This document shows, piece after piece, positions 5,035 to 9,375 of a DNA stretch of 64,000 nt. The notes under the pieces were generated by a model. It made no database searches. It had not been told where the DNA came from and was given only the letters and a program-made list of their open reading frames with translations. Numbering within the stretch: position 1 is the stretch's first letter; each line of letters opens with the position of its first letter. The translations under genes were made by a program, and so were the position numbers. Source of the stretch: Candidatus Peribacter sp. (lineage in GTDB: Bacteria; Patescibacteriota; Gracilibacteria; Peribacterales; Peribacteraceae); assembly GCA_018652955.1 (NCBI GenBank), contig JABIBA010000011.1, positions 62,001 through 126,000 on the forward strand, read 5' to 3'.

Positions 5035-8000
5035 ATGTTTGATCCAGTAGATCCATTACAGAGCCTCCCCGACCTCGAAGACGGTATTCTTCAGTATTGG
5101 AAGGAGGAAGATACGTTTAAGCGGTCTATTCGCAAGCACAGTACAGAGACTGGTGATGTTCTTGATAACCCCGAAGGAAAAGCTGGTAAAAAAGATAGTG
5201 CTGAGTTTTCATTTTACGATGGTCCTCCGTTTGCTACAGGTCTCCCCCACTACGGTCACCTTTTGGCTGGAACTATTAAAGATGTAATCCCTCGGTATCA
5301 AACCATGAGAGGAAAAAAGGTTGAGCGACGATTTGGATGGGACTGCCATGGGCTGCCTATCGAAAACTTGATTGAGAAAGAACACGACATCAAAGACAAG
5401 CAGCAAATTGAAGAAATGGGTATTGGTGCATTTAACGACTTATGTCGATCTGCTGTGCAACGTCACGCAGGCGACTGGCGAACGGTTGTCGAGCGCATGG
5501 GACGTTGGGTAGATATGGACTGGGATTATAAGACGATGGACCCCGACTACATGGAAAGTATCTGGTGGGTGTTTGCTCAGTTGCAAAAGAAGCAATTGAT
5601 CTATGAAGGATTTAAATCGATGCATATCTGTCCTCGGTGTGTCACACCTCTCAGTAACTTTGAAGTTACGCAGGGGTATCAGGATGTCGACGACACGTAT
5701 GCAACATGGAAGTTTAAACTTAATGGAGAACAAAACACGTACGTCATCGCATGGACAACAACACCATGGAGCACGCTTTCTACAATGGGTCTTTCAATCA
5801 ATCCGAAGTCTACGTATGTCAAAGTTCGCGTTGGAGAAGAATATATCATCTGTGCAAAAGACCGAGCAGAAGACATTATGAAGAACGTAGAAGAACATGA
5901 GATTGTCGATGAATTTGCAGGAAGTACACTCGTTGGAAAATCGTACGAACACATTGTCGATTGGTACGGAGATATTCCAGAAATAAAAGCAAACCCTCGT
6001 AGATATCACATCTACGGAGAAGACTATGTTGATTCCAAAGAAGGAACAGGAATAGTAACGATCAACGGAGCATACGGAGAAATAGATATGGAAGCTGCTA
6101 ATAAAAATAAGCTGCCTATTCTCATGGATGTCGAGATGACAGGAGTCTTTAACGATCACGCAGGTCCGTATTCAGGACTCTTTATTAAAGATGCTCAAAA
6201 GAAGATTATCGAAGACTGTAAAAAAAATAATCGTGTATGGGATACAGGATCGTACAGACACAGCTATCCGCACTGTTGGCGTTGCGATAGTCCACTGATG
6301 AACTACTCCACTGCGTCGTGGTTTGTCGCTGTAGATACCATTAAAGAAAAAATGCTCAAAGCAAATAGTAGAACCGAGTGGGTACCGTCACACTTGCGTG
6401 ATGGTCGTTTTGGAAGATGGCTGGAAAGCGCTCGTGACTGGGCTATTAGTCGTAACAGATATTGGGGAGCACCTCTCCCAATTTGGAGAGCAGGAGAAGA
6501 CGGCGATATCGAAGTACTCGGTAGCCGTGATGATTTGATGAAGAAGAAGCTAATTCGCTTTACGAAAGTCACAACACTTCGCCATGCAGAAAGCGAAGGA
6601 AACTTGATTCCTATTTACCAAGGAGAACTGCCAGGGACAGACCTTACAAAGAGAGGAAAAGGGCAAGCAAAAGAAGCAGGAGACTGGCTAAAGACACAGA
6701 ACGTCGACATTATTTACTGCAGCCCTCTAGCACGCACACAGCAAACTGCTGAAGCTATTGCGAAAAAGACCGGAGCAACCGTAGTAGTAGATGAGAGGCT
6801 ACGCGAAGTAAGCTTTGGGGAATGGGAAGGCAAAGCTGTCGACTTTTCTGACCTAACTTTTATCAAAGAGCGTAGAGCGCACAAACTTGAAAAAGGAAAA
6901 CCTGAAAGCATTTATCACTTTGATGGAATGGAAACATGGGAGAGCGTTGGCGAGCGTATCAATAACTTTATGGAAGACATACTGCCGAAGCACCGCAGTG
7001 AACATATTGTGATTGTCACGCATGCAGACCCGATGGTGAACCTAGAGCAGTTCTTTACCAAAGAAGATCCGGTAAAGCTGAGTCACCGGCCGTACCCAGA
7101 AAAAGCTACTCCTAAAACGTACTACTGGGATCACGATAAGAATCAGCAGTTAGATCTACACAAAGATACTGTCGATGATGTCTCATGGATGGGAGGGAAG
7201 AGTGACAAGAGTGTAGAGTTGATTTTAGTGCGTCACGGACAAACTGACTGGAACGCACAAAGTCTTTCACAAGGACAAACGGATAATGACTTGAATGAGA
7301 CAGGTATTGCTCAAGCACATGAAACTGCGAAAGCCCTCAAGAAAGAAAAGATTGATTTCATTATTTCTTCGGATCTCAAGCGTGCAAAACAGACTGCAGA
7401 AATTATCGGTGAAGAAATTGGTATCGAAGTTACAGAATTGTGGGAAGAGCTACGTGAACGCAGTGAAGGAATTTGGGACGGTAAACATATTGATGAAGTC
7501 CTTAAGGACTACCCAGCTGCATCTGAAGATGCGAAATCTGTTTCCTTCCATCACAGCACACCACCTAAGGGAGAATCCTTTACAGCATTTATAGAAAGAA
7601 CAGAAAAAGCATGTGAGATGCTCTTAGAAAAGTACGCAGGAAAGAAAGTCGTAGTTGTTTCCCATGGTGGAACAACGCGGGCTCTACACACAGTAATCCA
7701 AAACCTTGGATATAAAGCAGCTCTTAGCATGCGTCCAAAGAATGCAGGAATTATTCCTATGACACTCAACCCATTTTGTAAGCGCATTCCAGAAGTGTTG
7801 GACTGTTGGTTTGAAAGTGGATCTATGCCGTACGCACAAGAGCACTTCCCATTTGAGATGAAACATAAGAAGATGAAAGCTCCACAGAGTTTCCCTGCAA
7901 ACTTTATTGCAGAAGGAATGGATCAAACTCGAGGATGGTTTTACACACTCACTGTATTAGGAGCTGCATTATTTGAGAAGTCTCCATTTGAACACTGTGT

Positions 8001-9375
8001 AGTAAACGGAACCGTGCTTGCAGAAGATGGTAAAAAGATGAGCAAGCGACTGCAAAACTATCCAGACCCAATGATTGTCGTTAAAAAACATGGAGCAGAT
8101 GCTATTCGCTTTGCACTCATGAGCTCCCCTGCTGTTCGTGGAGAAGACCTGAGGTTTTCTGAACGCGTCGTTGAAGAAAATGTACGCAGCGTGCTACTTC
8201 CACTGTGGAACACATACAGTTTCTTTGTAACATACGCGAATGCTGCGAAGTTTGAGGCTAAAGACACAAGGCGCAAGAGTGAACACCCTCTTGATGTGTG
8301 GATCCGTGCAGAAGTACAAGACCTAGCAAACAGAATGACCAATGAATTAGAAGAGTTTGACCTCTCTGCAACGTGTGCAGAGCTCCACGAAACAATCGAT
8401 GCTCTTACCAACTGGTACATCAGACTTTCTCGTAGGCGCTTTGCCGGTAAAGGAGTGCTGGATGCATACCCTGATGGATCTGGTGATGCACAGTCACAAG
8501 ATCAGCATGATGCCCTTACAACTCTCTACGATGTGCTTCTCACTATCTCCCAGTGTCTTGCACCATTTTGTCCGTACATTACAGAGGCGATCTACTTAAA
8601 CCTCGTCGATGAAGATCATGGGTCTGTGCACCTTACTGATTGGCCAGAAACGAAAGAGCTTTCTAGTAAAGAGCAGCAGCTCCTAGAAAAAAACCGCATA
8701 CTCAGACGTATCGTCAGTCTTGGAAACTCTGTAAGAGCTTCTGCGAAAGTAAAAATTCGTCAGCCACTACAAAAAGCTTCTATTGCCCTCCCTCCAAACA
8801 CAACATTCGAACTGACTGCTGAGGATATGGATCTTTTGCGCCAAGAACTTAACGTTAAAGAGGTAGACTTTACCGATAACCCAGACGAACTCGCCGAAAG
8901 CTTTATGCAAGTAGATGCTCGCAAAGTAGGACCTCGTCTTGGTAAACGTGTTCAAGAAATTATCAACGCAGGAAAAGAAGGGAACTTTACGGTGCAACCA
9001 AGTGGTGAAATATTGATTTTAGATGAGACGCTCTCTCCAGAAGAAGCGCAACTGACCTACCGTGGAAAAGAAGGACAAAATGCAGCTGCAGATAAGGGTG
9101 TCGTGATCAGTATTAATACCGAACTTAGTGAGCAACTGCTCCTCGAAGGAGATGCGCGTGACATTATTCGCGGAGTACAACGCATCAGAAAAGAAACTGG
9201 TTTGGCATTCACCGACGAGATCACACTTGCCATAGAAGGAGGTGATGAGGTGATTGCAGAGCATAAAACACTAATAGAATCCGAGACACGTTCGACCATT
9301 GGCGAAAGTGCGGGAGATGATCACACCATCGAAGTGGGAGATCGAAAAGTGACGATTCGCTTCGAGAAGCGCTAA
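5035..9375 (+). CDS. ileS: Isoleucyl-tRNA synthetase with two histidine-phosphatase domains inserted in the catalytic core
   Basis: 1446 aa, about 400 residues longer than usual IleRS. It charges tRNA-Ile with isoleucine and edits valine. HIGH motif as PHYGH (71-75), tryptophan-rich editing entry (AWTTTPWSTLS, about 239-249) and KMSKR (1001-1005) are all present, so the synthetase looks functional. Between WGAPLPIWR (477-485) and VLDCWFESGSMP (921-932), where IleRS normally has a short connection, lie two phosphoglycerate-mutase-like domains: domain 1 about 508-700 with LRHAESEGN (His517), GEWEG and VTHAD (His663); domain 2 about 726-905 with LVRHGQTDWN (His734), IWDGK and VSHGGT (His877). 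A native IleRS remnant, LDLHKDTVDDVSW (about 705-717), separates them, so these are two separate insertions. There are no frameshifts. A TGG-TAGTCT box ends nine bases before the ATG. Confidence 0.97.
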   Translation: MFDPVDPLQSLPDLEDGILQYWKEEDTFKRSIRKHSTETGDVLDNPEGKAGKKDSAEFSFYDGPPFATGLPHYGHLLAGTIKDVIPRYQTMRGKKVERRFGWDCHGLPIENLIEKEHDIKDKQQIEEMGIGAFNDLCRSAVQRHAGDWRTVVERMGRWVDMDWDYKTMDPDYMESIWWVFAQLQKKQLIYEGFKSMHICPRCVTPLSNFEVTQGYQDVDDTYATWKFKLNGEQNTYVIAWTTTPWSTLSTMGLSINPKSTYVKVRVGEEYIICAKDRAEDIMKNVEEHEIVDEFAGSTLVGKSYEHIVDWYGDIPEIKANPRRYHIYGEDYVDSKEGTGIVTINGAYGEIDMEAANKNKLPILMDVEMTGVFNDHAGPYSGLFIKDAQKKIIEDCKKNNRVWDTGSYRHSYPHCWRCDSPLMNYSTASWFVAVDTIKEKMLKANSRTEWVPSHLRDGRFGRWLESARDWAISRNRYWGAPLPIWRAGEDGDIEVLGSRDDLMKKKLIRFTKVTTLRHAESEGNLIPIYQGELPGTDLTKRGKGQAKEAGDWLKTQNVDIIYCSPLARTQQTAEAIAKKTGATVVVDERLREVSFGEWEGKAVDFSDLTFIKERRAHKLEKGKPESIYHFDGMETWESVGERINNFMEDILPKHRSEHIVIVTHADPMVNLEQFFTKEDPVKLSHRPYPEKATPKTYYWDHDKNQQLDLHKDTVDDVSWMGGKSDKSVELILVRHGQTDWNAQSLSQGQTDNDLNETGIAQAHETAKALKKEKIDFIISSDLKRAKQTAEIIGEEIGIEVTELWEELRERSEGIWDGKHIDEVLKDYPAASEDAKSVSFHHSTPPKGESFTAFIERTEKACEMLLEKYAGKKVVVVSHGGTTRALHTVIQNLGYKAALSMRPKNAGIIPMTLNPFCKRIPEVLDCWFESGSMPYAQEHFPFEMKHKKMKAPQSFPANFIAEGMDQTRGWFYTLTVLGAALFEKSPFEHCVVNGTVLAEDGKKMSKRLQNYPDPMIVVKKHGADAIRFALMSSPAVRGEDLRFSERVVEENVRSVLLPLWNTYSFFVTYANAAKFEAKDTRRKSEHPLDVWIRAEVQDLANRMTNELEEFDLSATCAELHETIDALTNWYIRLSRRRFAGKGVLDAYPDGSGDAQSQDQHDALTTLYDVLLTISQCLAPFCPYITEAIYLNLVDEDHGSVHLTDWPETKELSSKEQQLLEKNRILRRIVSLGNSVRASAKVKIRQPLQKASIALPPNTTFELTAEDMDLLRQELNVKEVDFTDNPDELAESFMQVDARKVGPRLGKRVQEIINAGKEGNFTVQPSGEILILDETLSPEEAQLTYRGKEGQNAAADKGVVISINTELSEQLLLEGDARDIIRGVQRIRKETGLAFTDEITLAIEGGDEVIAEHKTLIESETRSTIGESAGDDHTIEVGDRKVTIRFEKR

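Follow-up and report, generated by a model that had tools for sequence, protein, structure and literature searches.

Type 2 (eukaryote-like) isoleucyl-tRNA synthetases (IleRS), such as those of yeast (8wnd), Priestia megaterium (IleRS2, 8c8v) and Thermus (1ile), share the core, the CP1 domain, the anticodon domain and the C-terminal extension with the protein described here, but these solved structures carry no histidine-phosphatase (HP) inserts and their CP2 leads directly from PIPLW...DLHR to EVFDCWFESG. The NCBI exception family NF040702 (ileS_w_GNAT) likewise combines IleRS with an extra catalytic domain, which is however an N-acetyltransferase and hence a different type of enzyme; our protein scores 221.9 bits with this model, far below the cut-off of 1999. 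Among phosphatases, the best solved homologue of both inserts is the PspA-type phosphoserine phosphatase of Hydrogenobacter thermophilus (4ij5/4ij6; E 2.3e-22 and 1.2e-19, TM-score 0.82 by target length), which has the same catalytic set but is a stand-alone enzyme. In the bifunctional RNase HI/acid phosphatase (PRK07238, Rv2228c type) an HP is fused to an RNA-handling enzyme, and both inserts match its HP part, though far below the cut-off; that fusion is end-to-end and not nested, and the partner is another one. The Aquifex HFP riboflavin phosphatase (9mmh), an HP acting on a small phosphomonoester (PMC12051542), also matches both inserts and is a stand-alone biosynthetic enzyme. Synthetases with extra domains are therefore familiar, whereas HP modules in IleRS or valyl-tRNA synthetase (ValRS) are new to our literature search, which found no report of them and, as the initial annotation had supposed, no described enzyme of this layout.

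Architecture of the IleRS

The stretch of DNA analysed (the window, 64,000 nucleotides) holds one uninterrupted open reading frame of 1446 residues that encodes an IleRS with two inserted HP domains, HP1 and HP2. The ileS model TIGR00392 recognised the protein with 778.8 bits (cut-off 621.4), and Pfam split tRNA-synt_1 into two parts and likewise detected two stretches of His_Phos_1 (299.5 bits, E 1.2e-89), besides Anticodon_1 and DUF5915. The IleRS hallmarks PHYGH, KMSKR, WTTTPW and PF08264 are present. The genes flanking ileS are ordinary. Since it is the sole IleRS match in a 1.2 Mb genome that is 99% complete, the protein is presumed to be active in charging. In the same genome PF00300 detects, beyond IleRS, one further HP gene only. 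The features of the locus, in window positions, are as follows.

5035-9375, + strand: ileS open reading frame, 1446 residues, two inserted HP domains (open reading frame, Pfam, TIGR00392)
5245-5259, + strand: HIGH-type motif PHYGH, residues 71-75 (sequence; conserved in the alignment of relatives)
5602-6234, + strand: CP1 editing domain, approximately residues 190-400, with WTTTPW and the altered motif GTGIVTINGAYGEID (sequence and structure comparison)
6451-6486, + strand: IleRS core RNRYWGAPLPIW, residues 473-484, upstream of the inserts (sequence, alignment)
6556-7137, + strand: HP1, site A, approximately residues 508-701, with R516 H517, R567, E591 and H663 (profiles, homologues, model)
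7150-7188, + strand: native IleRS segment LDLHKDTVDDVSW, residues 706-718, separating HP1 and HP2 (homologue comparison, alignment)
7213-7770, + strand: HP2, site B, approximately residues 727-912, with R733 H734, R783, E808 and H877 (profiles, homologues, model)
7783-7821, + strand: restart of the IleRS core RIPEVLDCWFESG, residues 917-929 (homologue comparison, alignment)
8035-8049, + strand: KMSKS-type motif KMSKR, residues 1001-1005 (sequence, alignment)
8293-8775, + strand: anticodon-binding domain, residues 1087-1247 (Pfam PF08264)
8830-9369, + strand: C-terminal DUF5915 domain, residues 1266-1445 (Pfam PF19302)

Where the window protein holds its inserts, solved IleRS structures pass unbroken from PIPLW through the DLHR segment to EVFDCWFESGSMPYAQ; because they run uninterrupted there, HP1 was placed after the GSRDDLMKK helix. 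HP2 follows VDDVSW, and the IleRS sequence is rejoined at KRIPEVLD. The piece of native synthetase that had been noticed between the two domains is conserved in relatives, with D707, L708, H709 and D714 invariant or nearly so across 46 of them. An AlphaFold2 model of residues 1-1090 (mean pLDDT 84.8, pTM 0.83) gave pLDDT values of about 90-97 for most blocks of HP1 and HP2, the loop 600-630 being weaker, and Foldseek aligned the core with yeast IleRS (8wnd), while for the inserts its matches were HP phosphatases, e.g. 4ij6. The initial annotation had proposed a structure prediction to see whether both insertions project from the same connecting loop; both fold as HP, and they occupy two different CP2 loops (sites A and B), not one.

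Catalytic residues and conservation of the inserts

The catalytic residues of HP enzymes are an Arg-His pair, a second Arg, an acid and a second His (PMC3866925, PMC12051542). This quartet (Arg-His / Arg / Glu / His) is complete in HP1 and in HP2. The two complete phosphatase domains first read from the sequence are thus borne out by the Pfam stretches, the model and the catalytic set, and the numbering given then, His517/His663 and His734/His877, was exact in both. Among 145 HP domains inserted in IleRS, the second Arg and the second His are retained throughout (145 each), the acid is Glu in 143 and Asp in the remaining two, and the first His is present in 144, the one domain that lacks it being a frame-broken fragment. 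In HP1 and HP2, dN/dS between the window protein and its near relatives is about 0.05-0.17, a level similar to that of the core, which indicates that both inserts are under purifying selection. HP2 evolves faster than HP1 (52% vs 84% identity to UBA6535; 24 vs 44 residues conserved at at least 95%). HP1 and most HP2 domains of the window's family keep N...QG, the signature of HP phosphatases that act on small molecules. Judged by these residues, the inserted HPs look catalytically live. Purely structural modules that lend the enzyme stability or extend its contact with tRNA, with catalysis irrelevant, could account for insert sites that flank the catalytic core and the anticodon-domain junction, where contact with tRNA may be supposed; this is nevertheless very unlikely, as the catalytic residues are near-invariant whatever the site or lineage and a scaffold would not need them.

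The profiles place the inserts in branch 1 of the HP superfamily and outside the families compared here. Against PF00300 (gathering cut-off 21.7) HP1 and HP2 score 179.5 and 129 bits in the search of their own genome. Both remain below the cut-offs of PspA (NF045917, 111.1 and 101.5 bits vs 350), of the alpha-ribazole phosphatase CobC (TIGR03162, 84.7 and 136.2 vs 162.9 per domain, the whole-protein score of 210.7 being a sum over the two domains) and of the two dPGM models (NF038349, 102.6 and 80.9 vs 225; TIGR01258, 33.0 and 68.1 vs 81.7).

The layout is a family trait. We sampled 74 genomes from 40 genera of the window's family, 7 of which were left unjudged because their ileS is too fragmented; all 67 resolved IleRS carry HP1, with both inserts in 58, HP1 only in nine and none clearly without. 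Relatives with the same inserts, for which the initial annotation had recommended a search, thus exist, and an assembly error or chimera, named there as the finding that could undo the architecture, is excluded, since dozens of assemblies made independently, including the single-contig genomes G018 and G051, agree in this layout. The named relatives in the contig scan were Candidatus Peribacter sp. UBA6535 and other Peribacteria/Peregrinibacteria types only. When plasmid-borne ileS was looked for, no record covered at least 80% of the query of HP plus flank. In G052 site B holds two HPs in tandem, which brings the IleRS to three HPs and 1672 residues. The closest relation of this third domain is the one at site B in G051, a genome of the same genus, which suggests from the sequence relationship that it may have been gained by recombination between strains.

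Insertion sites and origin across Patescibacteria

The survey covered Patescibacteria genomes within and outside the class; the wider genomes probably belong to the class Gracilibacteria and the phylum Patescibacteria, an assignment aided by families in which TGA encodes a residue. Across class and phylum the number of HPs per IleRS ranges from 0 to 3, distributed over four sites, which on the window protein map to residues ~509 (A), ~726 (B), ~950 (D, following DxWFESGSMPYAQxHYPF) and ~1076 (C, between the IleRS catalytic core and the anticodon domain). Inserts occur as A, B, C, D, AB, ABB, AC, DC, ADC and BDC, site B alone occurring in four members of family f9. Outside the class, 18/19 IleRS frames of 1124-1220 residues have one site-A HP, and the IleRS frames of ~1030-1070 residues examined within the class have none.

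The theme extends beyond the initial annotation not only to these other IleRS sites but also to ValRS. The PF00300 search first revealed an HP inside a ValRS frame of 1147 residues, and ValRS with 1-3 HPs was found in 16 genomes of families f6 and f15 (valS at L190, L193, L235-L245 and L249-L251), nearly all at the equivalent of site A. The ValRS of L238 has an additional HP in its CP1 region, upstream of the catalytic WG motif. In eleven genomes IleRS and ValRS both contain HPs. No HP was seen in other synthetases among the 50 genomes scanned with PF00300, in which those of the long HP-bearing frames that were individually examined were IleRS or ValRS. A glycolytic fusion was encountered at L186 (G395:C2, 486 residues), where an N-terminal HP is joined to pyruvate-kinase-like sequence; this HP clusters with the stand-alone HP that is conserved in the family of the window.

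The initial annotation had left open whether two independent insertions had occurred or a tandem had been split. In a careful tree (62 rows, mixture model) the family's HP1 domains form one clade (100/98) and its HP2 domains another (100/93), which lies inside a larger clade (97/84) together with domains from sites B and C of other families. One clade of HP1 plus HP2 was rejected (AU p = 0.0014), and so was one common origin for the IleRS inserts as a whole (p 0.006). Each domain also occurs without the other, A only in nine family members and B only in f9. The former alternative is thus supported, and the split tandem is rejected by the 62-row tree. In a quick tree of 146 rows the HP1 plus HP2 clade was not rejected (p 0.86); the constrained tree scored higher, hence the search behind this tree was poor. 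Because of this disagreement we regard separate capture of HP1 and HP2 as well supported by the phylogenies but not certain.

Possible functions of the phosphatase modules

Our preferred reading, to which we give a probability of about 0.45, is that the sole IleRS of this bacterium has been made multifunctional by two independently captured, predicted active HP modules, set beside the core at CP2 loops. Each module would be an active phosphomonoesterase. By the established mechanism of the HP family, the first His (517, 734) would take the phosphoryl group, Glu591/808 would serve as proton donor, the Arg pair and the second His (663, 877) would hold the phosphate, and water would then release it. 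We further infer that the modules, recruited in cis to the synthetases for the two beta-branched aliphatic amino acids, may provide quality control or clean-up at the synthetase, their substrate being a small phosphorylated compound encountered when Ile or Val is charged. The closest characterised relatives of the inserts act on small phosphomonoesters such as phosphoserine, which is a candidate substrate at most, since the inserts score far below the PspA cut-off. Among the targets suggested in the initial annotation (adenylate by-products, tRNA ends, a nucleotide alarmone), aminoacyl-adenylate, a mixed anhydride of the phosphodiester type, would be an unusual one for an HP.

The presence of HPs in both synthetases of the same genome favours action in cis, since a diffusible housekeeping phosphatase would not need it. 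The gene order in family f6, where ileS often precedes a trans-editing deacylase gene, favours it as well: a PF04073 aminoacyl-tRNA editing gene with weak YbaK similarity lies directly or nearly directly downstream in 6/10 ileS loci (L252, 4365-6669; L253; L255, 5886-6377; L261; L262; L265). In genus g102 (L252, L253) a stand-alone HP comes next in the ileS operon, followed in L252 by threonine ammonia-lyase, which is visible only where the contig extends. This operon may hint at the HP substrate. However, the PF04073 neighbourhood was seen in one family only; the window lacks it, and so do all 13 further ileS loci compared. Moreover, many Patescibacteria, including close members of the class, encode no HP whatever, either in IleRS or as a separate gene, therefore the HP function is dispensable; HP2 is much less conserved than HP1 and missing from some family members, and the retained catalytic residues would also fit a passenger enzyme.

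Such a passenger is the strongest rival. The HPs would perform unrelated housekeeping dephosphorylation, with CP2 and nearby loops serving as tolerant landing sites in a compact genome. Insertion at many surface loops, the substrate diversity of HP domains and small genomes with no HP beyond that in IleRS all agree with this. We nevertheless hold it to be rather unlikely, above all on account of the restriction to IleRS and ValRS among the scanned genomes, where several copies per protein or genome are common. Nor is a need for phosphoglycerate mutase a likely cause. A glycolytic mutase role for the inserts is unsupported, given dPGM scores below the cut-offs and the PF01676 proteins of other genomes. 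In four small genomes IleRS contains the only HP, and each of these genomes encodes a PF01676 protein of mutase size (three of ~530-545 residues, one of 406), a metalloenzyme-type mutase candidate, so IleRS is not needed as mutase there. The tested members of the window's family have no PF01676 and do have a stand-alone HP, which is likely their dPGM.

Alternatively, the modules, which surround the catalytic core, might dephosphorylate the synthetase itself, e.g. near the KMSKS loop, and so guard it against inactivating kinases. Kinase toxins do hit class I synthetases (HipA on GluRS, HipT on TrpRS), and PGAM5 is an HP-type protein phosphatase, so both parts of this scheme have precedents. It is improbable all the same, as the N...QG signature of HP1 and most HP2 points to small molecules and no HipA_C domain above cut-off was found in 40 genomes with and without inserts. 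Resident HipA kinases were accordingly dismissed as the reason for the HPs.

The evolutionary signal is strong: HPs were inserted into just two synthetases, which are related, repeatedly, independently and in varying copy number, and this points to a phosphorylated compound that matters for Ile/Val charging in these bacteria. A bolder form of our preferred reading is that in Patescibacteria repeated, independent captures of HPs working in cis gave IleRS and ValRS a second step of quality control or protection, based on a phosphatase and specific to these two enzymes, with a substrate that is not known from any other translation system; we consider it doubtful at present. The question is testable, since isolated HP domains can be directly expressed and screened.

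Finally, compensation for a damaged CP1 editing site could be read from the altered motif GTGIVTINGAYGEID of the window protein. It is hardly tenable, for most HP-bearing IleRS keep GTGIVHxAP...GEDD, and we know of no hydrolysis of carboxylic esters by HP chemistry. The altered VTING form occurs both with and without HP, the HP-free L116-L118 sharing it, and loss of CP1 editing and presence of HPs showed no correlation.

The same motif (window 6043-6087, residues 337-351) reads GTGIVTINGAYGEID in the window protein vs GTGIVHIAPGFGTDD in L005 of the same genus. The identity between these two proteins is 66% over residues 1-505, 81% in HP1 and 89% in the second part of the core. From this pattern it looks as if the N-terminal half of IleRS, including the editing domain, has been exchanged between lineages independently of the HPs.
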